Shown here piece after piece: positions 6,790 through 58,463 of a stretch of DNA of 64,000 bases. The position numbers and the translations under genes are program-made. Positions within the stretch are counted from its first letter, which is position 1; every line of letters begins with the position of its first letter. Under the pieces are notes generated by a model. It saw only the letters and a program-made list of their open reading frames with translations, had not been told where the DNA came from and did not search any database. The stretch is taken from contig NZ_VAJM01000001.1 of assembly GCF_005771675.1 (NCBI RefSeq), positions 496,001 through 560,000 on the forward strand. Direction: 5' to 3'. Source of the stretch: Hymenobacter jeollabukensis. GTDB taxonomy: Bacteria > Bacteroidota > Bacteroidia > Cytophagales > Hymenobacteraceae.

Positions 6790-8163
6790 ATGGCTGCTCC
6801 TGTTCCTCCGCTCCCGCCGCTGGAAGCCTCACCCGTTTCGGCCGACACCCGACTGGCTTACGTGCTCCGGCATTTCCGCCTAGCCTACGAAGTCGAGGGC
6901 GGGCTGCCCAGCATTGGCTACGCCGACACGCAGCCAGATATCGAAGTAGCCGATGCGGCCGGGGATTTTTTCAGCGGCACCGAGCCGTACGCACCCCCGC
7001 CGGCTTTCCTGGTGTGGATGGGTCGGGAACTGCCGTTCTTTTTTGCTCCGGGTACTACCGGCCCGCTGCTCACGCTGGCGCCGGGCCGGGCCGAAATCCA
7101 CGTGGACGTCGTTTCCGCCGCCTTTTACCTGCTCAGCGGCTGGCAGGAATATTACTCGGAGGAACGCGACCAGCACGGCCGCTTTCCATTCGCGGCCAGC
7201 GTGCAGGACTTCTTCGGCTTTGTGGAAGTACCGGTAGTTAATTACTACTTCGACGTGCTGCGCCGGGCCGTGGAACACGTAACGGGCCGGCCGCTGCGCC
7301 CGCGCCGCTGGGCCGATGGCGCACCCTTTGCCACCTTCGTCACCCACGACATCGACAACCTGTACAGCGCCTGGAAGGAGCCGGCCAAGGCGGCGCTGCG
7401 GCGCGTCAATGCTATCGACTTTTTACGTCAGGTTGGCCGGCGCTTCACGCACGCCGATGCCTGGGACAATCTGGCGCAGCTACAGCAAGCCGTAGCCCAA
7501 TACGGAGCGCGGAGCACGTACTTTTTTTTGGGCAACCACCGGCCGAGCCCCGCTGGTACGCCCAATGCCGACTACCGACTGCGTGCCCCTGCCGTGCAAC
7601 AGCAGATTCGGCAGCTCCACGACCTGGGCGCCGAAATAGCTATCCACGGCAGCTTAGGCACCGACACCCACGAGGCCGACTTGTGGCTGGAAACTGAGAT
7701 GCTGCCCGTCAAACCGCGCGGCAACCGCTTTCATTACCTGCGCTGGGAGCCGCGCATCACGCCCCACGTGGTAGAAAGTACCGGTTTCGAGTACGACTCC
7801 ACCCTGGGCTTCGCCGAGCACTTCGGCTTCCGCCACAGCTACTGCCTGCCCTTCCACCCGTTCAACTTTGAGGAAGGCGAAGCCTGCCGCTTCCTCGAAA
7901 TTCCGCTGAACCTGATGGACGCCACCCTGCACCACCCCCGCTACCTGCAGCTGGCCCCCGACGAAATCCTGCCCGCCATCGAGCCGATGCTGCAGGAAAT
8001 CGAGCGGTTCGGGGGCGTCTTCACCCTGCTCTGGCACAACGAAAACTTCGACCCGGCCAACACCGTGAACGGCCCGCGGGAGTTCCACCGCATCATGGCC
8101 TACCTTCGCAGCCGCCAAACCGCCTTCTTGACGGGACGGGCAATCTGTGAGATGGTGAAATAG
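6790..8163 (+). CDS. Polysaccharide deacetylase family protein
   Basis: A 457-residue protein. The N-terminal half (about 1-175) looks like the accessory domain found in Bacteroidota polysaccharide deacetylases of glycan clusters. The C-terminal half carries NodB-type motifs: FVTHDIDNLYSAW (the T-H-D-x-D metal motif, about residues 181-193), IAIHGSLGTDTHEADL and the later HNENFDP. No signal peptide is evident. It starts 9 bases after the previous stop, within TAATTTGCGCCTATG. The last codons (EMVK-stop) are written in GAGATGGTGAAATAG, the first units of the repeat that fills the following gap. De-N-acetylation of a lipid-linked or exported glycan is the likely role. Confidence 0.82.
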   Translation: MAAPVPPLPPLEASPVSADTRLAYVLRHFRLAYEVEGGLPSIGYADTQPDIEVADAAGDFFSGTEPYAPPPAFLVWMGRELPFFFAPGTTGPLLTLAPGRAEIHVDVVSAAFYLLSGWQEYYSEERDQHGRFPFAASVQDFFGFVEVPVVNYYFDVLRRAVEHVTGRPLRPRRWADGAPFATFVTHDIDNLYSAWKEPAKAALRRVNAIDFLRQVGRRFTHADAWDNLAQLQQAVAQYGARSTYFFLGNHRPSPAGTPNADYRLRAPAVQQQIRQLHDLGAEIAIHGSLGTDTHEADLWLETEMLPVKPRGNRFHYLRWEPRITPHVVESTGFEYDSTLGFAEHFGFRHSYCLPFHPFNFEEGEACRFLEIPLNLMDATLHHPRYLQLAPDEILPAIEPMLQEIERFGGVFTLLWHNENFDPANTVNGPREFHRIMAYLRSRQTAFLTGRAICEMVK

Positions 8164-8243
8164 TGAACTGGTGAGTTTGTCGTTCTGGCAACAGCCACGC
8201 CGCTAGGCCGTCACTCACCAGTTCACCATTTCACCATTTCACC
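8148..8243. repeat. Intergenic inverted-repeat element, GGTGAAATGGTGA family
   Basis: The left arm (8148-8178) is a run of 9-10-base degenerate units such as GAGATGGTGAAATAGTGAAC. The right arm (8212-8243) is its complement, CACTCACCAGTTCACCATTT and so on. The left arm overlaps the 3' end of the deacetylase gene and supplies its stop; the right arm ends 2 bases before the flippase start. Other copies: 21672, 29857, 52692 and 58376. Confidence 0.9.
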
Positions 8244-8245
8244 GC

Positions 8246-9721
8246 TTGGGCATCGTTCAGCGCCAGGGGCTGCGCAATACCGTTATTTCCTACTTCGGGC
8301 TGGGGCTGGGCTTCGTCAATACGGCCCTGCTGATGCCGCGCTTTCTGGCCTCCGACCAGGTGGGCCTGACGCGGGTGCTGCTGAGCCTGGCCACCATCTA
8401 CGCCCAGCTGGCGGCTTTCGGCTTTGCCAGCGCGGGCATCCGCTTCTTCCCTTATTTCCGCAACCGCGAAGCTGGCCACCAGGGCTTTCTGCCGCTGCTG
8501 CTGGGGCTGCCCATGCTCGGCTTCGCCGTGATTTCGCTGGCCTACTGGCTGGGCCGCCCGCTAATTTTGGCCGCCTACGACGCCGACGCGGCCCTGCTCG
8601 GGCCCTACTACGGCTGGTGCGCCCTGCTGGCCCTGTTTACCCTGCTCTACTCCCTGCAGGACGCTTACCTGAAGGGCCTCTACCACACCGCGTTTTCCTC
8701 GTTTCTGCAGGAAGTGCTGCTGCGCGTGCTCATTGCCGGCGTCACGCTGGCCTTCGGGCTAGGCTACCTCACGTTTCACCAGTTCGTGCTGGCCTACATC
8801 GGCGTCAACAGCGCGCTGACCTTGCTGCTGACCGGCTACCTGGCCTACATCGGCGAGCTGCACCTGCGGCCCACCCGGGCGGCCCTGCGGGTGCGGCCGG
8901 TGCGCGAGTTGCTCAGCTTCGGGGCCTTTGCGCTGCTCTCCAATATTTCCGGCACCGTCATCAGCTCCATCGACGCCTTGATGGTGGGCTCCAAGGTGAA
9001 TCTGAAGGCGGCCGGCGTCTACACCACGGCCTTTTTTATCAGCACGGCGCTGACCATTCCGTTCCGCTCGCTCTACAAGATTGCCTTTCCGCTGCTGGCC
9101 GATTACTGGAAGGAGCAGGACATGGCCCGCATGGCCGATTTCTACCGCCGTACCACCCGCCTCAACACCGTGCTGGGCTGCTACCTGGCCCTGGGCATCG
9201 GCCTGAACCTGGACTTTATCTACTCGCTGATGAAGCCCGAGTACGCCGCCGGCACCACCATCGTCTGGATTCTGCTGGCCGGCCGCCTCCTGGACGGCAT
9301 CACCGGCGTCAACGGGCTCATCGTCGTCACCTCCCCGCGCTACCGCTTCGATCTGGTGTTCAACGTGGCCCTGGCTGCGGGTACCGTGGGGCTGAACCTG
9401 CTGCTGATTCCGCCGCTGGGCATGGTGGGCGCGGCCTGGGCGGCGCTGCTGGCCCTTACCAGCATCAACGTGGCCCGCACCTGGTTTGTGTGGCACGCCT
9501 ACCGACTGCAGCCCTTCGACGGGCGCATTCCGCTGATCCTGGGCGTGGCCGCCGCCGCCGCGCTGGCCGGCTGGCTGGTGCCGGCGCTGCACTCGTTCTT
9601 CGTGACGATGGTGCTGCGCTCCGCCGCCCTGACGCTGGTGTACGCCGTCGGTCTGCTGCTCACCCGGGCCGTACCGGAAGTGCAGCCGCTGCTGCAGAAA
9701 CTCCGCGCCCGCTTGCGCTGA
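8246..9721 (+). CDS. Oligosaccharide flippase (MATE/Wzx superfamily)
   Basis: A 491-residue integral membrane protein with about 12-14 hydrophobic helices and no soluble domain. The opening QRQGLRNTVISYFGLGLGFVNTALLMPRFL, then VGLTRVLLSLATIYAQLAAFGF, is the first-helix pattern of polysaccharide-transport (Wzx/PST) proteins. A central FGAFALLSNISGTVISSIDALMVG segment is the start of the second half. It would flip the lipid-linked glycan made by the upstream enzymes across the inner membrane. The likely start is TTG 8246, directly after the repeat; there is no ATG before the first helix. Confidence 0.87.
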   Translation: MGIVQRQGLRNTVISYFGLGLGFVNTALLMPRFLASDQVGLTRVLLSLATIYAQLAAFGFASAGIRFFPYFRNREAGHQGFLPLLLGLPMLGFAVISLAYWLGRPLILAAYDADAALLGPYYGWCALLALFTLLYSLQDAYLKGLYHTAFSSFLQEVLLRVLIAGVTLAFGLGYLTFHQFVLAYIGVNSALTLLLTGYLAYIGELHLRPTRAALRVRPVRELLSFGAFALLSNISGTVISSIDALMVGSKVNLKAAGVYTTAFFISTALTIPFRSLYKIAFPLLADYWKEQDMARMADFYRRTTRLNTVLGCYLALGIGLNLDFIYSLMKPEYAAGTTIVWILLAGRLLDGITGVNGLIVVTSPRYRFDLVFNVALAAGTVGLNLLLIPPLGMVGAAWAALLALTSINVARTWFVWHAYRLQPFDGRIPLILGVAAAAALAGWLVPALHSFFVTMVLRSAALTLVYAVGLLLTRAVPEVQPLLQKLRARLR

Positions 9722-9736
9722 TTTCGGACTGAAAAG

Positions 9737-10009: not shown

Positions 10010-10041
10010 TCACGGCCGCACGGCAGGCACAGCGGGCCGGC

Positions 10042-12805: not shown

Positions 12806-12904
12806 TTGTTTTTATATGGTCAGGACTTGGCACCGTTCGGGACGTTCCCGGGGGTTGCCGGCGCTTCACGGAGCCTGTCTCTCCACGCCTCTGTATAAAA
12901 ACAA
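12806..12904 (-). promoter_or_regulatory. SAM-I (S-box) riboswitch aptamer
   Basis: Read on the minus strand from 12904, a perfect 11-bp closing stem (TTGTTTTTATA with TATAAAAACAA, positions 12894-12904 and 12806-12816) encloses the SAM-I core in order: AGAGGCGTGGAGAGACAGG, CTCCGTGAAGCGCCGGCAACC, a variable P3 hairpin, then CGGTGCCAAGTCCTGACC. These match the S-box consensus blocks GAGGxGGAGGGAxxGGC, UGAAxCCxxGGCAACC and GGUGCxAAxUCC. It binds S-adenosylmethionine and here lies upstream of an amino-acid permease gene. Its start is about 28 bases downstream of the promoter -7 element. Confidence 0.94.
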
Positions 12905-16839: not shown

Positions 16840-16882
16840 GCTGAAAAGCAGCGGTGCCAGCCAGCCGACCACGACAACACCA

Positions 16883-17072
16883 GCCGTCATTGCGAGCAAC
16901 GCGAAGCAATCTTTCCCCTCGCGGCCCAACGGCCCAACTGGCAGAAGCCCAAAACAACGCCGCCCGAAACCTACTATCTGCAGGTTCGGGCGGCGCTGTT
17001 TCGGTTGGTGCGTGCTGTGGCGGCGGTGCTACTAGAGGAAGGATTGCTTCGGCTACGCCTCGCAATGACGGC
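16883..17072. repeat. Inverted-repeat element, CGTCATTGCGAGC family (copy 1)
   Basis: Outer arms GCCGTCATTGCGAGCAACGC... (16883-16911) and ...CTCGCAATGACGGC (17042-17072) enclose a G+C-rich inner hairpin (CGCCGCCCGAAACC with GGTTCGGGCGGCG, 16958-16997) followed by GTTT. A second copy at 53626-53852 shares the outer arms, the inner hairpin and the stretch GGCGGTGCTACT between them. It lies between the convergent hydrolase-fold and EcsC genes, so the inner hairpin can also act as a terminator. Confidence 0.9.
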
Positions 17073-17092
17073 CGGCGTGGCCGTTGGCTAAG

Positions 17093-21671: not shown

Positions 21672-21737
21672 GAGGTGGTGAATTGGTGAAATAGTGAGTT
21701 TCGCGTCAACGACACTCACCAGCTCACCATTCGCACC
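21672..21737. repeat. Intergenic inverted-repeat element, GGTGAAATGGTGA family
   Basis: The left arm GAGGTGGTGAATTGGTGAAA... (21672-21701) and right arm CACTCACCAGCTCACCATTC (21713-21737) enclose a spacer with CGCGTCAACGA. The right arm is also the 3' end of the DegT aminotransferase gene (stop at 21716), whose last residues MVSW are therefore repeat-encoded. Confidence 0.88.
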
Positions 21738-24133: not shown

Positions 24134-25030
24134 TTACGTCAATTCCTGCAGCAGCCACAGCAGCTTCAGCAGGTCGAAGGCGCGCAGGTTGGGCTTGGCT
24201 CCCAGTACTTGCCGGCGCAGGCGCGGCTCCAGCAGCTGCAGGGTGCGGCGGGCAGCAGTGGCCAGGCCCAGGCGGCCCAGCCGCAGCGCCATCGTCAGCA
24301 GCCGGGAGTCGGTGCCGAGGCCCTCGGCGCGGTACAGGGCGGCTAGGTTGCGCACCGCGTCGCGGGACTTGCGCAGAAACGCCTCGGCGGGTTCCAGGCC
24401 GTCGTGCAGCACGGGGTTGTCGAGGTGCAGCACCGGCACGCCCGCTTCGCGCAGGTGCCAGCCGAATTTGGTGTCCTCGTGGCCATAGCGGGTCAGTTCT
24501 TCATCGAGGCCGAACTGACGAAACACCGCAGCTTGAATCAGCAGGTTGTTGACCGTGAGCTGGGCGTAGGGCAGCTGCTGCCGCAGGGTGGCGGGGCGCT
24601 GCTCGCGCTGCCGGCCGTAGTGCCAGCGCAGGCGCAGGGCCGCGTCGGCAGGCGGAGTGGCGGGGTAGCAGGTGCCGCCCACGAGCACCGGTGCTTGGGC
24701 ACTGGCAGCGGCGTAGCGGGCCAGAAACTGCGCGTCGGGCAGCGAGGAGTCGTTGTCGAGCAGCAGCAGCCAGGGGTATTGCGCCCGCGCCACCAGCTGG
24801 TTGCGAATGGCGGCGCGGCCCACGTTGCGCGGCAGCTCCTCGTACTGCACTCCCGGCAGCTCGGCCAGCAGCCGGTTTCGCTGCCGAAATTCCGGGGCCG
24901 AGCCGTCGTCGAGCAGCAGGATTTCGGCGGGGCCGGGCCAGTCGGGCAGCTGGGCCAGCAGGGCGCGCACCAGGCCTTCCACGGGCCAGTTGTACACCGG
25001 AATCAGCACCGAAAGCCCTGCGGGTTTCAA
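24134..25030 (-). CDS. Family 2 glycosyltransferase
   Basis: A 298-residue GT-A enzyme. The N-terminus KPAGLSVLIPVYNWPVEGLV is the GT2 start; EILLLDDGSAPEFRQRNRLL carries the first Asp-rich nucleotide site; NVGRAAIRNQLVARAQYPWL and LLLLDNDSS (residues about 90-98) give the DxD-like metal site; a later RYGHEDTKFGWHLREAG contains the ED motif of the acceptor side. There is no transmembrane helix, so it acts at the cytoplasmic face, adding a sugar to a lipid-linked or surface glycan. It is downstream of ftsE, separated by an AT-rich inverted repeat that ends at its start codon. Confidence 0.88.
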   Translation of the reverse strand: MKPAGLSVLIPVYNWPVEGLVRALLAQLPDWPGPAEILLLDDGSAPEFRQRNRLLAELPGVQYEELPRNVGRAAIRNQLVARAQYPWLLLLDNDSSLPDAQFLARYAAASAQAPVLVGGTCYPATPPADAALRLRWHYGRQREQRPATLRQQLPYAQLTVNNLLIQAAVFRQFGLDEELTRYGHEDTKFGWHLREAGVPVLHLDNPVLHDGLEPAEAFLRKSRDAVRNLAALYRAEGLGTDSRLLTMALRLGRLGLATAARRTLQLLEPRLRRQVLGAKPNLRAFDLLKLLWLLQELT

Positions 25031-25164
25031 TTAAAAATTCAGAATTAAAAATTAAAAATCAGCCGTTCGACCTGGCAGCCCAATGGCTATTTGCGACTCG
25101 TGGAAAAGTCGAGTCAGGCAGTTTAGCCCTCCCAATTCTTAATTCTTAATTCTTCATTATTAAT
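25029..25164. repeat. AT-rich inverted-repeat element (AATTAAGAATT family) overlapping ftsE
   Basis: The left arm (25029-25062) is AATTAAAAATTCAGAATT and similar units; the right arm (25131-25164) is AATTCTTAATTCTTAATTC and so on, complementary in style with a 9-10-base beat. The right arm lies inside the 3' end of ftsE and the left arm touches the GT2 start codon. Related elements: 26149, 37781 and 56346. Confidence 0.88.
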
Positions 25165-26139: not shown

Positions 26140-26148
26140 CGGGGTAGG

Positions 26149-26240
26149 AATTATGAATTATGAATGCTGAATTCTGAATTGAAGCCGCTAAACCGGTCCA
26201 AAACAGAATTCATAATTCATAATTCAACATTCATAATTCA
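26149..26240. repeat. AT-rich inverted-repeat element (AATTATGAATTATGAAT family)
   Basis: The left arm 26149-26181 (AATTATGAATTATGAATGC then TGAATTCTGAATT) and right arm 26206-26240 (GAATTCATAATTCATAATTC...) are complementary with a 9-10-base beat. It fills the gap from the small gene start to the fsa stop (26242). Confidence 0.9.
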
Positions 26241-26241
26241 T

Positions 26242-26982: not shown

Positions 26983-27082
26983 ACCGGCACGGCATCGAAA
27001 ACGAGGCCGATAGCCGGGCGTCGCGGGGCATCCCGCCGTGGACATGGCCCCACGGACGCGCTAGGGATAGGGCAAAAAAAAA

Positions 27083-27171
27083 GCGAACCAGTATCGCACC
27101 GCTTCAACCGCCTGCCCTTGCTACCTTCCGGTCCTGGGGGAGTTCAGCGGGAGCTGGTCGTACTGATTCGC
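27083..27171 (-). ncRNA. ffs: Signal recognition particle RNA (4.5S type)
   Basis: On the minus strand, a perfect terminal stem GCGAATCAGTA (27161-27171) / TACTGGTTCGC (27083-27093) encloses the universally conserved apical hairpin CCAGGACCGGAAGGTAGCAA, where GGACCGGAAGG is the SRP GNRA-tetraloop and symmetric loop that binds Ffh. Total about 89 nt, bacterial short type. A nine-base U tract (27074-27082, poly-A on the plus strand) terminates it, and an exact TTG-N21-TATCTTTG promoter precedes it. It targets nascent membrane proteins to SecYEG with Ffh and FtsY. Confidence 0.96.
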
Positions 27172-27176
27172 CGCTG

Positions 27177-27208
27177 CAAAGATACAACGGCAATTCGGCC
27201 CGAAACAA
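27177..27208 (-). promoter_or_regulatory. Promoter of the SRP RNA gene
   Basis: On the minus strand TTG (27206-27208), 21 bases, TATCTTTG (27177-27184), 5 bases before the RNA's first paired base. An exact Bacteroidota consensus for a constitutive RNA. Confidence 0.88.
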
Positions 27209-29848: not shown

Positions 29849-29856
29849 ACCAAAGT

Positions 29857-30019
29857 GGTGAAATGGAGAGGTGGTGAACTGGTGAGTTGACGTTCCGACG
29901 GCCTCTCATCCTACCATACCTCCGTTAGCGTCAACGGCCCCGGCAACACGTGTTGCCGGGGCCGTTTGCGCATTCACCCCAAATGTCAAACTCACCAGTT
30001 CACCATCTCACCATTTCAC
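29857..30019. repeat. GGTGAAATGGTGA-family inverted-repeat element with nested palindromic terminator
   Basis: The left arm (29857-29890) is GTGGTGAAATGGAGAGGTGG and following units; the right arm (29990-30019) is CTCACCAGTTCACCATCTCA and following units. Between them is the perfect terminator palindrome at 29933-29966. The right arm provides the TGA stop of the convergent gene at 30016. Confidence 0.88.
29933..29966. terminator. Perfect 34-base palindromic bidirectional terminator
   Basis: AACGGCCCCGGCAACAC and its exact complement form a 17-bp palindrome centred on CACGTG, with T runs on both strands. It serves the convergent guaA and the gene at 30016-32013. Confidence 0.93.
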
Positions 30020-32013
30020 CTAATGCCCACCGGGTTTTGCACCTCGATTTCGAGGCGCTCCAGCTTGGTGATGGGCACGTACTGGTTGTCGTGGGCCTGC
30101 TGGGGGTAGCCGATGCCCGGAAACAGCGTGCCCGACACGGGGCCGCTATTGGCCAGCGGCTGCTGGAAAGCGGGGCCGTTCTGGTGCAGCTGCGAGCCGA
30201 AATAGTAGAGCAGCTCGTAGCCCGAGGCGGCAAACACCGAGGGCGGAATATTCTGCTGCTGGGTGTAAAGCTGGCGGAAGCGGCGCACGCCGGGCAGAGC
30301 GAGGTCGAGGTACTTGGGCTGCAGGAAGTGAATGTCGCGTCGGTCGAGCTGGCCGAGGCTGATGCTGGGGTTTTCCTGCCAGGAAGCGTAGGTAATCAGC
30401 GGCATGGTCAGGCCCTGGGTCTGCATCACGCCCAGCGCGAAGGGTCCGGCCTTGCGGTGGTCGGAGGCCACCACGAGGTGCCCGGCGCTTGTCAAATCGA
30501 GCCCGCCGAAGCCGGCGTTGAGGCTTTCTGCGTTGTCGGAATCGATGCGGCGCATGGCCGATACCTTGCCGCCGAGGGCCTCGTAGGTTTTCTTGTAGGC
30601 CTCGGCGAAGGCCGCGTCGTCCTTGGTGTCTTCGTAGAACACCACGGCCGGGCGACTATTATTAAAGGTGCGGTAGGCGTATTCGGCGGCCACGCGGCCC
30701 TGGGTGGCGGTGCTTGGCTCGTAGAGGTAGTACCAGGCGTTGTCCTGCACCAGGGAGCCGTCCTGCGAGAGGGGATTCACGGCCACAATCTGGTTTTGCT
30801 GGGCGTAGCGGGCCAGAATGCGGGCGCCGGTCTTATACACCGGCCCGATAATCAGGTCCATGCCGGCCAGCTCGGGCTGCTGCAGGAGCTGCTTAAGCTG
30901 CAGGGTGTCGGCGCCGGTATCGTATGCGTAGAGGTTCACGAAACGGCCCTCGCGCTGCAGCGAGTCCTGGGCCAGCTTCATGCCGGCGTACAGATCGGTG
31001 ACGAACTGCAGGCGGCGGCGCGTCTCCCAGCTCGGGTCGTCGAACTCGAACGGGAGCAGCACGGCCACGTTGTAGCTGGTCTTTTTCTGGGGCCGGGGGC
31101 GTGGGGAGTAGCGGGTGCGGTCGAGGCCGTACTGCTGCACCAGCTGGTCGAGCTGCGGGCGGTCGGCATCGGTGTAGAGGCCGCCGAAGACCAGCTGCTC
31201 GGCGTAGGCGCGGGCCAGCACGGTGTCCTGGGGGTAGCGGCGCACCAGGTTTTGCCAGAGGGCTTTGTCGCGCAGGCGGGCCAGGTAGGTGGTTTTCATG
31301 GCCGTGCGCGGAGCGCGCAGCTGGGTGGCCGGAATCTGGCCGAGCACCTGCAGGGCGTTATCGGTGTCGCCCTGCTCGAAGGACACCTGTCCCTGCAGGA
31401 AGTACGCGTCGGGCAGGCCCGGCCACTGCGGGTACTCGGTGCGCAGCAGGTTGAGCATCTGCTCGGCCTCGGCCCAGCGCCGGGCGCGGCTGGCGGCCAC
31501 GGCGTAGAGGTAAGCCGCTTCGGGCGCTTTGGCAAACTTAGCCGCGGGCGCCGTGAGCGGCAGCAGCTCCTCCATGGCCAGGTCGTAGCGGGTTTGGTCG
31601 ATGAGCGTCTTGCCGTTGCGGTAGCGGGTGTTCGGGTCCTGGGAGCCGAGGTTGGCGGGCAGCGGCGGGGCGGGTTTCGGCGCGGGCTTCGGGGCGGCCG
31701 GGGCCGTGACGGGCGCGGCGGTAGTGGCTGCTTTGGCCGGGGTGCTGGTGCCAGCGGCGGGCTTGGCAGTGGTGCCGGCGGCCTTGGGCGCGGTGGTGGT
31801 CGTGGGCTTGGCGCCGGGGGCGGTGCTGCCGGGCTTCGCGGGCGTTTGCGTGGTTTTGCCGGGCGCCGCCGCGGGCTTCGGGGTGGCACTGGTCGCCGGC
31901 TTGGTAGCCGCTGGTTTGGCCGGGGCTGGCTTGGTCGGCGTGGGCTGCTGGGCCAGCACCGGCCCGGCCAGCACCGACGACGTCACGAGAAAGCACGCGA
32001 GAAAGGACCGCAT
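30016..32013 (-). CDS. Exported periplasmic-binding-protein-like (LppC/LivK-type) protein with TPR region
   Basis: A 665-residue protein. The signal peptide (MRSFLACFLVTSSVLAGPVLAQQ) is followed by about 100 residues of low-complexity Ala/Pro/Lys/Thr linker (20-125), a helical TPR-like region (about 125-300, with AEAEQMLNLLRTEYPQWPGL), and a type I periplasmic-binding fold (about 310-640: YNVAVLLPFEFDD, GMDLIIGPVYKTGARILARY, IVAVNPLSQDGSLV). This arrangement resembles LpoA-type activators of penicillin-binding proteins and LivK-like receptors; a ligand-binding or cell-wall regulatory role is inferred. The stop TGA lies in the neighbouring repeat. A TACCTTTG (32070-32077) upstream is a probable -7 element. 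Confidence 0.78.
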   Translation of the reverse strand: MRSFLACFLVTSSVLAGPVLAQQPTPTKPAPAKPAATKPATSATPKPAAAPGKTTQTPAKPGSTAPGAKPTTTTAPKAAGTTAKPAAGTSTPAKAATTAAPVTAPAAPKPAPKPAPPLPANLGSQDPNTRYRNGKTLIDQTRYDLAMEELLPLTAPAAKFAKAPEAAYLYAVAASRARRWAEAEQMLNLLRTEYPQWPGLPDAYFLQGQVSFEQGDTDNALQVLGQIPATQLRAPRTAMKTTYLARLRDKALWQNLVRRYPQDTVLARAYAEQLVFGGLYTDADRPQLDQLVQQYGLDRTRYSPRPRPQKKTSYNVAVLLPFEFDDPSWETRRRLQFVTDLYAGMKLAQDSLQREGRFVNLYAYDTGADTLQLKQLLQQPELAGMDLIIGPVYKTGARILARYAQQNQIVAVNPLSQDGSLVQDNAWYYLYEPSTATQGRVAAEYAYRTFNNSRPAVVFYEDTKDDAAFAEAYKKTYEALGGKVSAMRRIDSDNAESLNAGFGGLDLTSAGHLVVASDHRKAGPFALGVMQTQGLTMPLITYASWQENPSISLGQLDRRDIHFLQPKYLDLALPGVRRFRQLYTQQQNIPPSVFAASGYELLYYFGSQLHQNGPAFQQPLANSGPVSGTLFPGIGYPQQAHDNQYVPITKLERLEIEVQNPVGIR

Positions 32014-33539: not shown

Positions 33540-34937
33540 ATGTCCTGGCCGCGGCTGCTCTCGCGCCGCCGCTACCCCGACCAGCCTCAGCTGCACGTCG
33601 TGACCGACGCGGCGCCCGTGCGCGGGGCCTTTGTGCAGGACTACGACCGGGTGGTGTTCAGCTCGGCCTTCCGCCGCCTGCAGCGCCAAGCCCAGAACGT
33701 GCCCCTGCCCGAAACTGATTTCGTGCACACCCGCCTCACGCACTCCCTCGAAACCGCCTGCGTGGGCCGCTCCCTGGGCCGTTTCGGCGGGCGCCTGCTG
33801 ATGGAGCATGACCCCACGCTGGCCGAGGAGCTGCCCTTCTTCGACGCCGACTGCGGCGACATCGTGGCCGCCGCCTGCTTGGCCCACGACATCGGCAACC
33901 CGCCCTTCGGCCATGCCGGCGAAGATGCCATTGCGGCTTACTTCAACAGCCCCGCCGCCGAGCCCTTCGTGCGCACCCTCTCCGCCGCCCAACGCGCCGA
34001 TCTGCAGCACTTCGGCGGCAACGCGGCGGGCTTCCGCGTGCTCACCCACACCTACCCGGCCCACAGCAGCGGCACGGCCGGCCTGGGCCTGACCTACGCC
34101 ACGCTCGGCGCCTTTACCAAGTATCCGCGCCCCTCGCAGGTGGAGGCCAGCGACCAGACCGGCGGGGCCAGCGACCAGACCGGCGGGGCCAGCGAAAAGA
34201 AGTTCGGCCACTTCCAGACCGAGGCCGCCCGCTTCCAGCACGTGGCCCAGGACCTGGGCCTGCTGCCCAAGGCCGACGACGCCCAGGGCTTCTACCACCG
34301 CCACCCGCTGGCCTTCCTCGTCGAAGCCGCCGACGACATCTGCTACCGCATCATCGACTTCGAGGACGCGCTTAAGCTGGGTCTGCTGCCCCCGGCCGAG
34401 GGCCTGCAGCGCCTGCGCGCCATCCTGGCCGACCCCGCCGACCGTCCCCGCACCGTGCAGTGGCACGACTGGCGCGAGGAGCTGGGCTACCTGCGTGCCC
34501 GCCTCATCGGCAAGCTGGTGGCCGAAACCGCCCAGGTCTTTGCCCGGCACGCCCCCGCCATGCTCACCGGCGACTACGACGACTGCCTGATCCAGGAGCT
34601 GGAATGCTGGCCCCAGCTGCAGGAAATCCAGCAGCTCTCGGTGCAGCACCTCTACCGCAGCCACCCCGTGCTGCAAATCGAGGCCGCCGGCTTCGAGGTG
34701 CTGGCTGGCCTGCTCGACGCCTTCCTGCACGCCGCCTTCGACCCTTCGGCTTCCGCCCGCTCGCGCAAGCTGCTCGACCTGCTGCCCGCTCACTACCGCG
34801 CCACCGGCGCCCAGGCCGACCTCCCGGCCTACGAGCAGATCATCCTGCTGACCGACTACGTGGGCACCCTCACCGACCAGAACGCCCTCAGCCTCTTCCG
34901 CACCATCAAGGGTATCGACCTGCCGAAAGGGTTCTGA
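33540..34937 (+). CDS. dgt: dGTP triphosphohydrolase (HD domain)
   Basis: A 465-residue protein from ATG 33540 (MSWPRLLSRRRYPDQ, the usual Dgt opening); ATG 33513 is an alternative. It hydrolyses dGTP to deoxyguanosine and tripolyphosphate. Motifs: FSSAFRRLQRQAQNVPL, RLTHSLET (first His), CLAHDIGNPPFGHAGEDAI (HD metal pair, then GNPPFGHxGE), LVEAADDICYRIIDFED. At about residue 203-216 a 7-residue unit ASDQTGG occurs twice in tandem (21-base repeat, 34146-34187) in a surface loop before KKFGHFQ, a length polymorphism-like insertion. dGTPase limits dGTP pools and can restrict phage. Confidence 0.92.
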   Translation: MSWPRLLSRRRYPDQPQLHVVTDAAPVRGAFVQDYDRVVFSSAFRRLQRQAQNVPLPETDFVHTRLTHSLETACVGRSLGRFGGRLLMEHDPTLAEELPFFDADCGDIVAAACLAHDIGNPPFGHAGEDAIAAYFNSPAAEPFVRTLSAAQRADLQHFGGNAAGFRVLTHTYPAHSSGTAGLGLTYATLGAFTKYPRPSQVEASDQTGGASDQTGGASEKKFGHFQTEAARFQHVAQDLGLLPKADDAQGFYHRHPLAFLVEAADDICYRIIDFEDALKLGLLPPAEGLQRLRAILADPADRPRTVQWHDWREELGYLRARLIGKLVAETAQVFARHAPAMLTGDYDDCLIQELECWPQLQEIQQLSVQHLYRSHPVLQIEAAGFEVLAGLLDAFLHAAFDPSASARSRKLLDLLPAHYRATGAQADLPAYEQIILLTDYVGTLTDQNALSLFRTIKGIDLPKGF

Positions 34938-34989
34938 GGAGTTAGGAGTTAGGAGTTAGGAGTTAGGAGTTAGGAGTTAGGAGTTAGGA
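34937..34989. repeat. Heptanucleotide tandem repeat GGAGTTA
   Basis: Seven to eight near-perfect copies of GGAGTTA begin at the dgt stop. Unlike the other intergenic elements these copies are almost identical, suggesting recent expansion by slippage. It is one arm only; no complementary arm was found nearby. Confidence 0.9.
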
Positions 34990-35095
34990 TTGAACGACAA
35001 GCTTCCCTCCTCGGATGAGGAGGGGACGCGGCAGGTTTACTTGCCGCTGGGGTGGCTGACCGCCGTTGCTGGCGTTGGTCAACTACTCACGTTCA
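34990..35095. repeat. GGAGGGGACG-family intergenic element (partial copy)
   Basis: CTTCCCTCCTCGGATGAGGA then GGGGACG, with GCTGGGGTGGCTG and two smaller hairpins (GGCAGGTTTACTTGCC; GACCGCCGTTGCTGGCGTTGGTC). The phrases GAGGGGACG and CTGGGGTGG are shared with the larger element at 48022-48179. It lies between dgt and hemL. Confidence 0.65.
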
Positions 35096-36534: not shown

Positions 36535-36558
36535 GAGGAGGATTGGCAGGGGTAAAAG

Positions 36559-36745
36559 CCCGTCATCCTGAGCAGAGCGAAGGACCTTCCTCCCACCCTG
36601 CACCGCCGCTACCTACGAAGTACAACCGCTTTCCCGCTAACGTCAAAGCGCAGCCACCTTGCCCGGACGACTGGGCGTTGGTGGCTGCGCTTCTCAGTTG
36701 GTGCAGGCTACGAGGAAGGTCCTTCGCTCTGCTCAGGCTGACGGG
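36559..36745. repeat. Large inverted-repeat element with nested hairpin (CGTCATCCTGAGC family)
   Basis: 34-base arms (36559-36592: CCCGTCATCCTGAGCAGAGC...; 36712-36745: ...CTCAGGCTGACGGG) enclose a second stem, AAGCGCAGCCACC (36646-36658) with GGTGGCTGCGCTT (36680-36692). The right arm runs into TTTTT, so the element can terminate hemL transcription. Confidence 0.9.
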
Positions 36746-36824
36746 TTTTTATCCCTCTGACACAACCAACATTTTAGCTTATTCCAAGCCCCAAGCCCTC
36801 ATTTTCCGCATTATAGCCATCCGT

Positions 36825-36857
36825 TTGGCATCATACCCTATCCGCGGTCTATCTTTG
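36825..36857 (+). promoter_or_regulatory. Promoter upstream of the membrane-protein gene at 36882
   Basis: TTG 36825-36827, 22 bases, TATCTTTG 36850-36857, 24 bases before the ATG. Consensus Bacteroidota promoter. Confidence 0.78.
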
Positions 36858-36881
36858 CCCCCAAACCGTTTGCTGCCTGCT

Positions 36882-37780: not shown

Positions 37781-37870
37781 CTAATTCTGAATTATGAATG
37801 CGGAATTATGAATTGGCTGTGGAAGTCAATCCCCTAATTCAGCATTCATAATTCTTAATTCATAATTCCC
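37781..37870. repeat. AT-rich inverted-repeat element (AATTATGAATG family)
   Basis: The left arm 37781-37816 (CTAATTCTGAATTATGAATG...) and right arm 37831-37870 (...CAGCATTCATAATTCTTAAT...) form the same design as 26149-26240. It fills the gap before dcd and ends 4 bases before its ATG. Confidence 0.9.
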
Positions 37871-47992: not shown

Positions 47993-48021
47993 TCAGAGGA
48001 ATGTGCTGATGATAGGACGGT

Positions 48022-48179
48022 AAACTCCCCTCCTTTTTGAAGGAGGGGACGCCAACGCGCCAGCGTTGGCTGGGGTGGTTTCACGTCAGATAGTAATCTA
48101 CCGGACGCCTGACGTTCACTGCCGAAAACCACCCCGGCCTTCGGCCACCCCTCCTTGAAAAAAGGAGGGGAGTTGACGT
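48022..48179. repeat. Large inverted-repeat element, GGAGGGGACG family
   Basis: The left part (48022-48081) has CTCCCCTCCTTTTTGAAGGA, GGGGACG, a hairpin CCAACGCGCCAGCGTTGG and CTGGGGTGGTTT. The right part (48125-48179) has AAACCACCCCGGCC, TTCGGCCACCCCTCC and AAAAAAGGAGGGGAGTTGAC. The spacer has TCAGATAGTAATCTACC, as in the CGTCAT family. It separates gldA from gldF. Confidence 0.9.
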
Positions 48180-48181
48180 TC

Positions 48182-49108
48182 TTACTTTTCAGATTTGGTG
48201 GAGGTCGTCAGTTCCTGGAACACCTGCTCCAGCGACTGTTCTTCCTGGCGCAGCCCGAGCAGCAGCCAGCCCTGCTGGGCGGCCAGCTGCGAAATGGCGC
48301 GGCGCTGGTCGCCCTTGCCTTCGGTGCGGATAATCCAGGCGCCGCCCTGCCCCTGCTCGACGGCTTTCACGCCGGGCAGCTGCCAGAGCGGGGCCGGGTC
48401 GATCGGGCCCTCGAACTCGGCGCGGATGACGGCGCCGCCCTTGGTGAGGCCGGCCAGCTCGCGCACGGGCGCATCGGCCACCAGCTGCCCGCGGCTGATG
48501 ATGACCACCCGGTCGCAGAGGGCCTGCACTTCGGGCAGGATGTGGGTGCTAAAAATGACCGTTTTATCCTGGCCCAGCTCCCGGATCAGCGTGCGGATTT
48601 CGCCAATCTGGTTGGGGTCGAGGCCGGTGGTGGGCTCGTCGAGGATGAGTACCTGCGGGTCGTGAATCAGGGCCTGGGCCAGCCCCACGCGCTGCCGGTA
48701 GCCCTTCGAGAGGGCCCCGATCTGCTTGTTCTGCTCGCGGGTGAGGCCCACGCGGCCCACCAGCTCCTGCACCCGCTGGCGCAGCGCGCTGCCCCCCAGG
48801 CCGTGCACGCGGCCGATGAAGTCGAGGTACTCGTGCACGTACATGTCGAGGTAGAGCGGGTTGTGCTCGGGCAGGTAGCCCACGCGGCGGCGCACTTCCA
48901 GGGGCTGCTCCACCACGTCGAAATCGGCCACGCGCACCGTGCCGCTGCTGGGCGGCAGGTAGCCGGTGGCAATTTTCATGGTGGTGGACTTGCCGGCGCC
49001 GTTCGGGCCCAGGAAGCCCAGGATTTCGCCCCGGCCGGCCGTAAACGAAATGTCATTGACGGCGGCCTGCGAACCGAAGAGCTTGGTCAGGTGAGAAATT
49101 TCAACCAT
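48182..49108 (-). CDS. gldA: Gliding-motility ABC transporter ATPase GldA
   Basis: A 308-residue ATPase from ATG 49108 (MVEISHLTKLFGSQAAVNDI). Walker A FLGPNGAGKSTTMKI, LPEHNPLYLDMYVHEYL (Q-loop region in the form of GldA), ALSKGYRQRVGLAQALIHDP (signature LSKGYRQRV), VLILDEPTTGLDPNQIGEIR, and a C-terminal regulatory domain. It powers GldF. TATCTTCG occurs 3 bases before the ATG, suggesting a near-leaderless mRNA. The long open frame beyond 49108 is shadow. Confidence 0.93.
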   Translation of the reverse strand: MVEISHLTKLFGSQAAVNDISFTAGRGEILGFLGPNGAGKSTTMKIATGYLPPSSGTVRVADFDVVEQPLEVRRRVGYLPEHNPLYLDMYVHEYLDFIGRVHGLGGSALRQRVQELVGRVGLTREQNKQIGALSKGYRQRVGLAQALIHDPQVLILDEPTTGLDPNQIGEIRTLIRELGQDKTVIFSTHILPEVQALCDRVVIISRGQLVADAPVRELAGLTKGGAVIRAEFEGPIDPAPLWQLPGVKAVEQGQGGAWIIRTEGKGDQRRAISQLAAQQGWLLLGLRQEEQSLEQVFQELTTSTKSEK

Positions 49109-50318: not shown

Positions 50319-51101
50319 ATGAACCGCTGCAAAACGGGCGCGCAAGATAGCACGCGCCTCCGGCTAGGGGCATACGCGGCCCCGGCCCTGCTGGTGGCGG
50401 CCGTGCTGCTCGGCGGCTGCCGCAAAGACCACGAGGGCGACTGTTTCAAGAGCAGCGGCAAGGTGACGGAGGAGCGGCGCGAGCTGGCCCCGTTCCGGGT
50501 GCTGCGCCTCTACGACAACGTGGAAGTAACCGTGGTGCAGGACGCGGAAACCTACGCCCTGGTGCGCACCGGCCAGAACCTGCAGGAAGACCTGGAGCTG
50601 ACCGAGCAGGACGGCACGCTGACCATCCGCAACACCAGCCGCTGCAACTGGGTGCGCCGCTACGACGTGCCCCGGCAAGTCACGCTGCACACCCCGCGCC
50701 TCACCGACGTGTTTCATACCGGCGAGAAAACCCTGCGCACCCAGGGCGTTTTCCGCCAGGACACACTTTTTCTGCACCTGGCCCGCGCCGGCGATGTGGA
50801 GTTCGAAGTCGAAAGCAAGCGGCTGTGGGTCGACCTCTACGAGCTGGGCGACATGCGCCTTTCCGGCCGCACCGACGAGCTGGTGGCTACCGTCGGCGAC
50901 CTGGGCAGCCTCTACGCCCAGGGCTTGCGCGTCCGCCGCGCCAGCGTCGACCTGGACAAGCTCGGTGACGGCGACGCCCACGTGCTGGTCACCGACTTCC
51001 TCGGCGCCCGCGTGGCCGGCAATGGCAGCCTGTACTACAATGGCTCCGCCGCGCAGAAAGACATCAGCGTGACGGGTAAAGGCCGGGCGGTAAGCCAATG
51101 A
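50319..51101 (+). CDS. GIN-domain (DUF2807) lipoprotein
   Basis: A 260-residue protein with a lipoprotein signal peptide; lipobox VLLGGC puts the acylated Cys at about 34. After the Cys, FRVLRLYDNVEVTVVQDAE is the DUF2807 (putative auto-transporter adhesin, head GIN domain) start: V-x-x-x-x-x-V-x-V-x-x-G-x-x repeats of a right-handed beta-helix continue to the end. Bacteroidota have many such surface proteins; function unknown. The stop TGA is inside the repeat (CCAATGAACAATG) that follows. Confidence 0.85.
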   Translation: MNRCKTGAQDSTRLRLGAYAAPALLVAAVLLGGCRKDHEGDCFKSSGKVTEERRELAPFRVLRLYDNVEVTVVQDAETYALVRTGQNLQEDLELTEQDGTLTIRNTSRCNWVRRYDVPRQVTLHTPRLTDVFHTGEKTLRTQGVFRQDTLFLHLARAGDVEFEVESKRLWVDLYELGDMRLSGRTDELVATVGDLGSLYAQGLRVRRASVDLDKLGDGDAHVLVTDFLGARVAGNGSLYYNGSAAQKDISVTGKGRAVSQ

Positions 51102-51160
51102 ACAATGGCGCAAGGGTGTATTCCCTATTGTTCATTGCTTATTGATAATTGCTCATTGCC
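51095..51160. repeat. CAATGAACAATG/ATTGTTCATTGC inverted-repeat element
   Basis: Left CCAATGAACAATGG and right CTATTGTTCATTGCTTATTG, then ATAATTGCTCATTG: complementary arms with a 9-10-base beat and a shorter left arm. It lies between convergent genes; the left arm overlaps the stop of the GIN-domain gene. Confidence 0.8.
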
Positions 51161-53594: not shown

Positions 53595-53625
53595 CCATCG
53601 GCAACACAAGCAGACGGCAGCACTG

Positions 53626-53852
53626 GCCGTCATTGCGAGCAGCGCGAAGCAATCGGTCCTGGCCAATGTGCCGCCGATGCAATGCCTGCAAACCGAAAGT
53701 CGACTGAGTAACAATGGCGCCGCCCGAAACCAAGTAACGCTGGTTTCGGGCGGTGCTGTTTTGGGTTTCTGCCAGTTGTAGCGGCGGTGCTACTGGAGGA
53801 AAGATTGGCTACGCCTTCCTGCGGTTGCCGCGCTTCGCTCGCAATGACGGCC
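53626..53852. repeat. Inverted-repeat element, CGTCATTGCGAGC family (copy 2)
   Basis: Left GGCCGTCATTGCGAGCAGCG (53626-53645 on) and right ...CTCGCAATGACGGCC (to 53852); inner hairpin CCGCCCGAAACC with GGTTTCGGGCGG (53720-53753), then TGCTGTTTT, a terminator. It shares the outer arms, inner hairpin and AGCGGCGGTGCTACT with copy 1 at 16883-17072, so the full about 200-bp element is a dispersed family. Between convergent mlaF and the DinB-family gene. Confidence 0.9.
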
Positions 53853-53867
53853 GGGGCAGCCGCTTGC

Positions 53868-54446
53868 TTATCCCTGCTGGAAGTTGCCCCAGCCCATGCG
53901 CTTGCGCAGGCTGGTGATGTGCGCAATATGGTGCCGGCCGTGCCAGGCGTACAGCACTAGGGCTTGGTCGAGGCGAATCGTCTGCTCCGTTGCCGGGTGG
54001 TACCAGGTGCGCTGCCACTGCTCGTCGGTGAGCTGGCTGAGCAGCACCACCCAGCGGGCGTGCAGCGCGTCGAGCAGGATCAGCGACACGTCGGGCGGCA
54101 CGATGGTCACGTCGGGCAGCTGGGCCCAGGCGGCTTCGTTGTAGGGCCGGATGGTGGGGTTGTCCTCGGTCAGAGCCAGCCGGAAGCGGGTGTAGCTGTT
54201 CACGTGCGAGTCGGGCAGGTGGTGCAGCACCTGGCGCACCGTCCAGCCGCCCGGACGGTAGGGCGTATCAAACTGCTCCCCGCTAAGGCCATCGAGGGCC
54301 ATGCGCAGCTCGGTGGGCAAAGCCATCAGCTGCTGAATGTAGCCGTGGCGCTGCTCGGCCGTCAGCGGCTGCTCGGGCAGTTGGTAGTGGCCAATGGGGT
54401 AGCGCAGGTCCTGCTCGGCGGCAGGTTGGGTTTCGGGAGTCGACAT
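53868..54446 (-). CDS. DinB/YfiT-family putative thiol (bacillithiol) transferase
   Basis: A 192-residue four-helix-bundle protein from ATG 54446 (MSTPETQPAAEQDLRYPIGH). Conserved metal-site histidines: HHLPDSHVNSYTRFRLALTE (HxxDSHxxxxxR) and AWHGRHHIAHI near the C-terminus, the YfiT/DinB-like triad. Also RPGGWTVRQVLHHLPDS, the WTxxQxxxHxxDS signature of bacillithiol transferases in Bacteroidota and Firmicutes. Role in thiol conjugation is inferred. Confidence 0.85.
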   Translation of the reverse strand: MSTPETQPAAEQDLRYPIGHYQLPEQPLTAEQRHGYIQQLMALPTELRMALDGLSGEQFDTPYRPGGWTVRQVLHHLPDSHVNSYTRFRLALTEDNPTIRPYNEAAWAQLPDVTIVPPDVSLILLDALHARWVVLLSQLTDEQWQRTWYHPATEQTIRLDQALVLYAWHGRHHIAHITSLRKRMGWGNFQQG

Positions 54447-54521
54447 AGGGGCAAAATTAAGCGCCGCAAGTCTACGGAATTGCGGCCAACCGATAGGTGC
54501 TTCCCTCCTGCCGGCAATACG

Positions 54522-54560: not shown

Positions 54561-54597
54561 TTTCTGGATCAAACGACTGGAACAGCCGGCCAGGCCG

Positions 54598-55239: not shown

Positions 55240-55359
55240 GAGGGAGAAATGTATGCGAATGGGTGATGGGTGACTGAATTGCTTCTAACGCAATAATGCG
55301 AGCGGGGGGAAAATGTTAGCTGATTTTTTCCCGCCCGCACTTTTTGCGCAGTCACTCGG

Positions 55360-56337: not shown

Positions 56338-56345
56338 GGTTCTAC

Positions 56346-56442
56346 AATTAAGAATTAATAATTAATAATTAAGAATTATGATTAGCCTGCCGCATTGACG
56401 GTCAAACCAATTATTAATTCTTCATTATTAATTATTAATTGA
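56346..56442. repeat. AT-rich inverted-repeat element between etfB and etfA
   Basis: Left arm ATTAAGAATTAATAATTAAT... (56346-56380), right arm AATTATTAATTCTTCATTAT... (56408-56442), near-perfect complements with 9-10-base units. It begins immediately after the etfB stop and interrupts an otherwise tight etfBA operon. Confidence 0.92.
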
Positions 56443-56445
56443 TTC

Positions 56446-57186: not shown

Positions 57187-57259
57187 CAGGTCGACTTAAG
57201 GGTCAGAAGATGCGGGCAATGCCCTAATTTCGGGCCGAAGATACTGGAAAATCCCGCCG

Positions 57260-57601: not shown

Positions 57602-57695
57602 AATTTATTCGGCACGCCTAACATTTTTCGACAAATGGGCCGTGCGGGCCGTAGCGCGCACGGTGCGGACGATACACCTAGCCCAGCCCCACACG

Positions 57696-58379
57696 ATGAA
57701 AATATTGCTCGTCGAGGACGAACCCAAGGTATCAGCCTTCATTCGGAAAGGGCTGGAAGAAGAGCATTTCGACGTGGAGGTGGCCTACGACGGCACTTTC
57801 GGCGCCCGGCTGGCCCTGGGGCACAGCTTCGATCTGATTATCCTGGACGTGATTCTGCCCGGCATGAGCGGCTTTGAGGTGCTCAAAACCATCCGGCAGC
57901 GCGACCAGGACGTGCCGGTGCTCATGCTCACCGCCCTGGGCACCACCACCGACAAGCTGGAGGGCTTCAACGCCGGGGCCGACGATTACCTGGTCAAGCC
58001 CTTCGACTTTCCGGAGCTGCTGGCCCGGGTGCGGGCCCTCACCCGCCGCCGCGGGGGGCACGGCGTGAAGGGCGCCACCCTGACGTTGGCCGACCTCACG
58101 CTGGACACGGCCGCCAAAACCGTGACCCGGGCCGGGCAGCCGCTCAAGCTGACGGCCCGCGAGTTTGCCCTGCTGGAGCTGCTGCTGCGCAACCAGGGCC
58201 GCGTGCTCAGCCGGGCCGAAATAGCCGAGCACAGCTGGGAAGACTCCTTCGACGCGGGCTCCAACGTCATCGACGTGTACGTGAACTACCTGCGCAACAA
58301 AGTCGACAAGCCCTTCCCCACCAAGCTGATCCACACCGTGGTAGGCATGGGCTACGTGATGCGGGAAGACGAGCGGTGA
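57696..58379 (+). CDS. OmpR/PhoB-family response regulator
   Basis: A 227-residue DNA-binding regulator from ATG 57696. Receiver domain: MKILLVEDEPKVSAFIRKGL, phospho-acceptor D51 (LIILDVILPGMSG), MLTALGTTTDKLEGFNAGAD and the conserved Lys in DDYLVKPFDF. Winged-helix domain from about 125: LTLADLTLDTAAKTVTRAGQ, LKLTAREFALLELLLRNQGR, NVIDVYVNYLRNKVD, HTVVGMGYVMRED. Its stop (CGG TGA) is supplied by the repeat that follows. It is paired with the sensor kinase at 58465; the CTAAT operator at 60005 upstream of the efflux operon is the likely target. CusR/CzcR-like by context. Confidence 0.93.
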   Translation: MKILLVEDEPKVSAFIRKGLEEEHFDVEVAYDGTFGARLALGHSFDLIILDVILPGMSGFEVLKTIRQRDQDVPVLMLTALGTTTDKLEGFNAGADDYLVKPFDFPELLARVRALTRRRGGHGVKGATLTLADLTLDTAAKTVTRAGQPLKLTAREFALLELLLRNQGRVLSRAEIAEHSWEDSFDAGSNVIDVYVNYLRNKVDKPFPTKLIHTVVGMGYVMREDER

Positions 58380-58463
58380 AATGGTGAGATAGTGAAATAG
58401 TGAGTGCCGTTCTGACCTCCTGTTTACCTGCACATCAAACTCACCATTTCACTATTTCACCAC
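58376..58463. repeat. GGTGAAATGGTGA-family inverted-repeat element between regulator and kinase
   Basis: Left arm GGTGAAATGGTGAGATAGTG... (58376-58405), right arm CTCACCATTTCACTATTTCA... (58440-58463). It overlaps the regulator stop and ends 1 base before the kinase ATG, interrupting the two-component operon. Confidence 0.92.

Follow-up and report, generated by a model that had tools for sequence, protein, structure and literature searches.

Repeats in the gaps between bacterial genes take several described forms, among them BrickBuilt of Porphyromonas gingivalis (Bacteroidetes), which has tandem units. BrickBuilt is described as a strictly intergenic miniature inverted-repeat transposable element (MITE; PMC10969869). 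CGTC-tagged repetitive extragenic palindromic (REP) sequences are characterized as head-to-head dimers in gaps at the ends of convergent or co-directional genes, with no dedicated transposase of their own, and are reported from Bacteroidetes, Wolbachia and Rickettsia, among others (Di Nocera 2013, PMC3733652). A Bacteroidetes subclass of REP-associated tyrosine transposases (RAYTs) is credited with atypical structures (PMC6006769), and intergenic arrays of the heptamer TAACTGA are recorded from Beggiatoaceae, cyanobacteria and five Bacteroidetes (MacGregor 2015, PMC4679880). Here we report the palindromic repeats that lie between genes in a 64,000-nucleotide stretch of Hymenobacter jeollabukensis (contig NZ_VAJM01000001.1, positions 496,001 to 560,000; hereafter the window) and at the corresponding sites of related genomes, where particular gaps hold a palindrome across much of the genus and its family differs from one close relative to the next.

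Data and definitions

The window is part of a genome of 6.18 Mb (G000), in which it lies on contig C1. It was compared with genomes labelled G001–G007 and with further loci that carry L-numbers (L035–L065 and others); the closest named relatives of G000 by etfA protein are Hymenobacter species of at most 93% identity, G000's own records possibly being excluded. Genes were called with our own script, so that start codons are approximate. The best palindrome was scored in each gap of 60–900 bp; where a gap held two, the best-scoring one alone entered gap scoring, pairing and class counts. Elements were assigned by our own script to four classes (periodic, CGTC-type, terminator-like, other), in which "CGTC-type" is a label of resemblance and not of membership in the published CGTC-tagged REP family. 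A survey of arm structure covered 1289 gaps of 30–900 bp in G000, G002, G006, G005, G001 and the named loci L038–L065 longer than 8 kb. Matches to repeat words were counted on both strands, overlapping matches included, with the word read backwards as control. Two places cited below on the coordinate scale of the window, 134377 and -190514, fall outside it.

Palindromes in the gaps

The inverted repeats in the gaps are real and exceed chance. Of the 299 gaps of 60–900 bp scored over 464 kb of G000, 72 reach a score of at least 18 and 132 a score of at least 12, against 0 and 5 after shuffling; the 72 comprise 24 convergent gaps (out of 47), 46 co-directional ones (out of 196) and 2 divergent ones (out of 56). 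The survey of the Hymenobacter group found palindromes of at least 14 in 409 of 1289 gaps (66 CGTC-type, 99 terminator-like and 244 other long ones), present in 120 of the 201 convergent gaps, 272 of the 849 co-directional ones and 17 of the 239 divergent ones with terminator-like hairpins included, and an outgroup yielded 32 palindromes among 138 gaps. When 14 gaps were tabulated across the named loci, the divergent ones never scored 13 or more (57187, 0/25; 51876, 0/18; 50292, 0/16), and the remaining ones did so in 1/13 to 17/18 of the loci. Gene-end placement is shared by REPs as published (PMC3733652), so that placement alone is not new.

The window has 46 gaps of at least 60 bp, of which 45 were scored, one being longer than 900 bp. 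A score of at least 16 is reached in 15 of them, in none of the 7 divergent ones, and about 20 are occupied if weak palindromes are counted. Hairpin-forming repeats occupy a third to under half of the window's gaps; an earlier reading of the window, made from the sequence alone (hereafter the sequence-only reading), overstated their extent in having them fill nearly every gap. Among the 19 places it listed, 14 score at least 16 (the fifteenth such gap, 54447, holds a terminator-like hairpin), while those at 3548 (score 10), 21672 (7.5), 25029 (6), 34990 (8) and 51095 (11.5) are decayed, imperfect or one-armed, 34990 being a one-sided tandem array with a single GGAGGGG word. Its tally of at least seven unrelated families needs revision in both directions: the CGTCATnCTGAGC and CGTCATTGCGAGC words have the same tag and the same arrangement as dimers and are treated here as one group, and GTTGTCA, AATGTGCTG, GAGACAT, CGGATTTC and TAGTGCC are further families beyond its list.

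Family exchange between relatives

The 19 places were compared by eye with G002, in which the flanks are about 93% identical. Another family stands there at seven gaps (3540, 26140, 39495, 47993, 51102, 56299, 62707) and the same family at seven (8164, 16840, 36535, 37773, 52691, 53595, 58380); two elements are not present in G002 (21608, 61389), one is decayed in both genomes (25010), and two gaps were not comparable (29849, 34938). Gaps 26140 and 39495 each hold a different family in G000, G002 and G006 (Table 1), and the flanks of the former are 97–100% identical. Orthologous gaps do not always keep one family, so that the earlier description of the elements as exchangeable stands.

The gaps themselves have diverged unevenly. 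Among 109 gap pairs of G000 and G002, those with a palindrome in both genomes (18 pairs) have a median gap identity of 0.48, those with a palindrome in one genome 0.53 and 0.60 (9 and 12 pairs) and those with none 0.75 (70 pairs), at flank identities of 91.0–92.6% over the four groups (92.6% with palindromes in both genomes, 91.3% with none). A larger pairing, of 364 kb of G000 with 500 kb of G002, gave 220 paired gaps, 197 of them of at least 60 bp; a score of at least 15 was reached in both genomes in 38, in G000 alone in 16, in G002 alone in 21 and in neither in 122. As scored by script from the G000 side, 18 periodic elements kept their word in 5 cases, faced another word in 7 and no palindrome in 6 (3 of these with a recognisable arm); the same three counts are 1, 10 and 1 for 12 CGTC-type, 6, 6 and 2 for 14 terminator-like and 1, 5 and 4 for 10 other elements. 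From the G002 side they are 4, 10 and 0 for 14 periodic, 1, 4 and 1 for 6 CGTC-type, 7, 9 and 6 for 22 terminator-like and 0, 8 and 9 for 17 other elements. Where the class is equal on both sides, the word is kept in 10 of 13 terminator-like and 5 of 11 periodic pairs, and by this measure terminators are at best modestly more stable than periodic elements. Binned by divergence of etfA DNA, the same-word share is 5/13 at 2–5%, 6/12 at 5–8%, 8/26 at 8–12% and 57/627 above 12%, for all genome pairs at window gaps in which both palindromes, of any class, score at least 14; the pairs are not independent, and the 2–5% bin is G000/G002 alone.

Ordinary conserved terminators or regulatory hairpins, drifting by compensatory change, would account for the avoidance of divergent gaps, the gene-end sites, the terminator-like hairpins within several loops, the paired small changes between same-family orthologues such as 8164, and the frequent change of word among terminator-like hairpins in the one-sided counts. 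Entire families nevertheless change between conserved flanks, and conservation is lower in gaps that hold palindromes than in those that do not; the swaps contradict this explanation as a complete account, and we consider it improbable.

Sites that stay occupied

The gap between etfB and etfA has a palindrome scoring at least 13 in 24 of 33 distinct sequences of the Hymenobacter group, a count that leaves out L036 and L037 and in which L063 duplicates L035. Its many wordings include, by eye, AATTAAT, GAGTTTATG, GAACTTAGA, GAGACATGA, GGTTTTTGGT, TTGAATGTTGA and two GTCAT types. In the outgroup (Pontibacter, Rufibacter, Adhaeribacter, Botryobacter), the aligned etfA starts 1–3 nt past the etfB stop in 16 of 16 sequences; our gene caller reported 83–131 bp in 5 of 6 outgroup etf gaps as a result of choosing a start deeper in the gene. 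The etf gap of L054 contains a GTCATTGCGAGG palindrome followed by the apparent outer end of an older GAGTTATG arm that is still found in L053, and that of L045 has kept a single arm. Gap 52691 scores at least 13 in 7 of 19 named loci with six wordings by eye, to which the window adds a seventh.

Viewed by eye, the etf gaps of G002, G005 and L035 share one framework and those of G006 and G001 another, a grouping that runs against the ranking by etfA protein identity. Such a pattern could arise if entire gap alleles were imported from other species through homologous recombination in the conserved genes on either side, but the flanks of palindrome pairs are as similar as others (92.5–93.8%), and we judge import distinctly improbable.

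Arms and loops

The sequence-only reading had seen different words set in the same grammar, and this was borne out. Arms, first described as made of 7–10-base units, are significantly periodic (p < 0.01) in 84 of the 244 long palindromes of Hymenobacter-group gaps, with periods of 7 (25 elements), 14 (26), 8 (27), 9 (4) and 12 (2). Periodic arms also occur in 3 of 66 CGTC-type and 1 of 99 terminator-like elements, and in 5 of 29 long palindromes of the outgroup, so the periodic class is not restricted to Hymenobacter. The first arm of the 84 periodic elements contains 10.6% C and 30.7% G, with C rarer than G in 78 and commoner in 3, a bias that is absent from 138 non-periodic long arms. Filling of the gap from stop codon to start codon, likewise claimed at the outset, applies to the periodic class, in which the median fill is 0.86 and 39 of 72 co-directional elements leave at most 20 bp, but not to terminator-like hairpins (0.21; 47 co-directional cases). 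The predicted RNA fold was one strong hairpin in five of five elements tested (z -5.9 to -12.3), as expected for palindromes.

As a purpose of the 7–8-base period we considered stop codons in all three frames. Of the 84 first arms, 31 have them, compared with 11.4 when composition is shuffled; permuting the letters within units gives 27.1 (standard deviation 3.9), so that this purpose is not supported. Rho loading sites in the second arm, considered from the words alone, were set aside. Perfect long tandem arrays of palindrome units, with a much shorter partner arm, were observed in G000 at C6:73762–73829 and C1:55728–55801 (L212, L238); these and the array at window positions 34937–34992 are possible slippage products.

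The heptad and octad palindromes could be one class of self-rewriting hairpin loci, which would keep site, arm length, a 7–9-base period and a C-poor first arm. Selection and hairpin-templated copying would then hold the form and leave the word free, to be wholly rewritten within a few percent of gene divergence; a single gap would thus come to hold unrelated words, and identical words would recur around unrelated loops. We regard this as unlikely.

Copies of TGGTGAnn have a loop in common, roughly GTCGTTCTG...TGCGC...GCCTCCCGAACATC in an alignment of 39 distinct copies; 41 of the 253 loop pairs are alike, and shuffling gives none. The family is multi-copy with conserved ends and a conserved interior, as in a MITE, and few of its arms are solitary (10 of 52). 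The interior is not conserved in AATTATG, GTTGTC and ATGTGC, in which related loops make up 0 of 55, 1 of 28 and 1 of 21 pairs, hardly above shuffled, for 11, 11 and 7 elements taken from the loci retrieved and from sampled gaps rather than from every copy. Since TGGTGAnn shares loops and these three families share arms alone, a single mobile mechanism for all does not follow; the original wording "mobile or exchangeable" fits in so far as families are exchanged at orthologous gaps and TGGTGAnn behaves as a copied element, whereas the loops of the other three are private. Arm match is 0.71–0.75 within an element and 0.40–0.58 between members.

Three loop motifs, chosen afterwards from the same loops (131 of 214 loops, classed "other", were retained), recur across arm families: CAGAACG (13 observed, 1.3 expected), GATAGTA (12, 0.3) and TCGTTGAA (9, 0.2). 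In palindrome-free gaps the corresponding values are 17 and 9.7, 2 and 3.3, and 6 and 1.7. GATAGTA, which the GGAGGGG element at 48013 also has, and TCGTTGAA lie mostly in CGTC-type loops; CAGAACG or CGTTCTG was noted, above shuffles, in palindrome loops of G000 and G002 that belong to six or more arm families.

Evolution in place alone, in which the palindrome of each gap would be ancestral and its word rewritten by slippage and hairpin-templated copying, accords with same-register changes seen by eye. AATT units differ at 134377 while loop and flanks match in part; AAATGG and CATTG units occupy the same register at -190514, where the loop is apparently inverted; and the GAATTATG and GAGTTATG etf versions seem to align unit by unit (L055, L058, L048, L038, L053), their computed alignment having covered mainly the 3' arm. 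The private loops of three families also agree with it. The common loops of TGGTGAnn copies across the genome do not, nor do gap 61389, which is filled in G000 and palindrome-free in G002 and G006, and the changes between CGTC-type and heptad families, which are not small rewrites; in-place evolution alone is in our view unlikely.

The reading that we prefer, with confidence barely better than even, is that REP- or MITE-like palindromes behind genes undergo rapid replacement, with partial rewriting in place in the heptad-armed families. Several kinds of short palindromic repeat of this type (about 90–260 bp, two long arms and a loop) lie in the gaps behind genes. TGGTGAnn, with its homologous loops, and probably the CGTC-type as well, would spread as whole copies by means of an enzyme, and newcomers would replace older palindromes. 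In the heptad-armed families the arms would also be rewritten in place, slippage homogenising the 7–8-base units and template switching at the hairpin copying one arm from the other, which would keep the arms complementary. A hairpin that lies between a stop codon and the following start would do little harm, and most palindromes are for this reason probably tolerated; at some sites, such as etfB–etfA and convergent gene ends, the hairpin may serve to end, shield or insulate messages.

Several observations weigh against replacement with partial rewriting. The best match of an arm is its own partner in only 29 of 74 elements, among palindromes preselected for arm match. Nested elements amount to 5 of 181 inside an outer palindrome scoring at least 10 (0 shuffled), several of which look like one split element, and are too few for insertion into older palindromes as a general route. 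Among 21 listed gap pairs, inspection by eye found no clean-edged filled and empty insertion site and no target duplication, and no mobilizing enzyme or target site was found. In the one-sided counts, terminator-like hairpins keep their word in 6 of 14 and 7 of 22 cases, little above the 5 of 18 and 4 of 14 of the periodic class, and the script scores 16840 and 53595 as changed although they are CGTC-type in both genomes.

Copy numbers and transposases

TGGTGAnn has 379 matches in G000 (control 9), 389 in G002 (12), 116 in G005 (4) and 75 in G006 (22), four each in G004 and G007 and none in G001 and G003. The backward control of G006, with 21 reverse matches against 0–10 elsewhere, perhaps reflects another repeat family. 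AATTnTG, with controls of 0, has 80 matches in G000, 72 in G007, 18 in G002, 12 in G003, 6 in G006, 4 in G004 and none in G001 and G005; a longer AATTATG word was found in 61 of 395 Bacteroidota genomes and 29 of 171 genera. GTTGTCA, ATGTGC and the CGTCATGCTGAGC type have 173, 26 and 70 matches in G000 (controls 0).

Matches to Y1 transposases number one each in G000, G002 and G004, two in G001, four each in G003 and G007 and none in G005 and G006. The sole match of G000 is at C3:154920–155255 (L009), between palindromes GGTACTACGACT..AGTCGTAGTACC that apparently form a separate small repeat family; its place on contig C3 fits the remark that the window lacks a RAYT. This gene, together with a REP-like placement near gene 3' ends (as described in PMC3733652), is what could be expected of REP elements moved by a RAYT, that is, a Y1 tyrosine transposase. 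The gene adjoins palindromes other than the families described here, however, and across the eight genomes the presence of TGGTGAnn and AATTnTG does not follow the transposase: TGGTGAnn reaches its 116 and 75 matches in G005 and G006 in the absence of Y1, with 0 and 4 in G003 and G007 despite four Y1 matches each, and AATTnTG has its 6 matches in G006, also lacking Y1, with none in G001, which has two. Y1/RAYT is not supported as mover of these two families, and movement of the repeats by a RAYT is very improbable.

Elements of the window

The elements at the listed places are given in Table 1.

Table 1. Repeat elements at the listed places of the window and what occupies the same gaps in other genomes (positions in the window).
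Position	Strand	Element	Details	Other genomes
8141..8248	.	TGGTGAnn palindrome (8-base unit)	arms 8141-8176 / 8213-8248; RNA fold z -8.0	same family in G002
21672..21729	.	decayed TGGTGAnn palindrome	second arm enters next reading frame; score 7.5	not seen in G002
29857..30020	.	TGGTGAnn palindrome	GC-rich terminator-like hairpin in loop	
52692..52778	.	TGGTGAnn palindrome	between MlaE permease and ABC ATPase genes (Pfam)	other wordings in named Hymenobacter
58376..58463	.	TGGTGAnn palindrome	between response regulator and histidine kinase genes (Pfam)	
25028..25060	.	AATTAAAA tandem stretch	one-armed, partnerless; gap score 6	
26145..26241	.	AATTATG palindrome (7-base unit)	RNA fold z -7.9	GGAGTTAG in G002, AATGTGCTG in G006
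37781..37868	.	AATTATG palindrome		
56345..56441	.	AATTAAT palindrome	etfB-etfA gap (genes by Pfam)	
3548..3665	.	CGTC-type unequal dimer	score 10	GGAGAGGGG palindrome in G002
36548..36756	.	CGTCATCCTGAGC palindrome	terminator-like hairpin in loop	
39521..39629	.	CGTCATGCTGAGC palindrome	RNA fold z -12.3	AATGTGCGA family in G002, TGTCATCCTGAGC in G006
61401..61515	.	CGTCAGGTCGAGC palindrome		gap without palindrome in G002 (51 bp) and G006 (53 bp)
16871..17084	.	CGTCATTGCGAGC palindrome	around GCCGCCCGAAACC terminator-like hairpin; convergent gap	
53608..53869	.	CGTCATTGCGAGC palindrome	around same kind of terminator-like hairpin as 16871..17084; convergent gap	
48013..48184	.	GGAGGGG palindrome	loop has GTCAGATAGTAA in common with CGTC-type loops	CGTC elements in G002, G006
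34937..34992	+	AGGAGTT tandem array, one-sided	7 copies; no inverted partner seen; gap score 8	
62708..62865	.	AGCTTGC palindrome (7-base unit)		GGAGCTA family in G002
51095..51160	.	AATGAACAATG partial palindrome	score 11.5	GAGGGTAG-like family in G002, G006, G005

GC-rich terminator-like hairpins were observed inside the loops at 16840–17092, 36535–36881, 53595–53867 and 29849–30015, and similar loops recur at other gaps, like portable terminators. At the L042 gap that corresponds to window position 62707, a GGAGGGG palindrome apparently lies inside an older AGCTAG-rich one. On the minus strand, a SAM riboswitch (12809–12901) and a Bacteroidales small SRP RNA (27077–27180) score above the Rfam gathering thresholds.

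Comparison with known repeats

Bacterial palindromic repeats are generally classified according to sequence family, and here site and architecture seem to outlive sequence. If this is true, counting by words overlooks a large class of repeats, a hairpin behind a gene can function without being conserved, and the relatives of Hymenobacter form a series in which the replacement step, and the process that mobilizes or copies the elements, might be caught. Exchange of palindrome families at orthologous gaps was not found in open-access titles and abstract openings; a search for REP palindromes in Hymenobacter found no open-access paper, and six repeat words searched as text gave nothing related. 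We did not find described the exchange of families at one gap, a common period and strand bias across different words, or arms shared around private loops.

Like RAYT-associated REPs, the elements are palindromes in gene-end gaps, but the GTAG tag was not seen in these families and TGGTGAnn does not follow the presence of Y1. They resemble MITEs, as these are described (PMC10969869), in being short, mostly intergenic and non-autonomous with terminal inverted repeats, TGGTGAnn fitting best; no parent transposon was found here, nor, among the 21 listed gap pairs, a target duplication, and, unlike in MITEs, three families have private loops.

The likeness to CGTC-tagged REPs, as far as their published description extends (PMC3733652), lies in the tag and the layout: CGTC is followed by AT at one end of 16883, 36559, 39526 and 53626, the left end of 61406 reads CGTCAG, and all five palindromes are head-to-head dimers with CGTC at both outer ends. 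The published unit is a hairpin with a stem of 8–9 bp and a loop of 4–5 bases, whereas four of four single CGTC-type units of the window lack such a stem and fold no better than shuffles, for which reason the label denotes resemblance. The arms here also differ in being about 28–57 bp long, in having the loop motif GATAGTAA common to several wordings and to the GGAGGGG element, and in being replaced by other families at orthologous gaps. With the TAACTGA arrays, as reported (PMC4679880), they share heptamers beside start codons, a patchy spread, no evident mechanism and a word that resembles the 3' arms found here; those arrays are direct repeats, with one indirect case, whereas the Hymenobacter elements consist of two complementary arms in many words.

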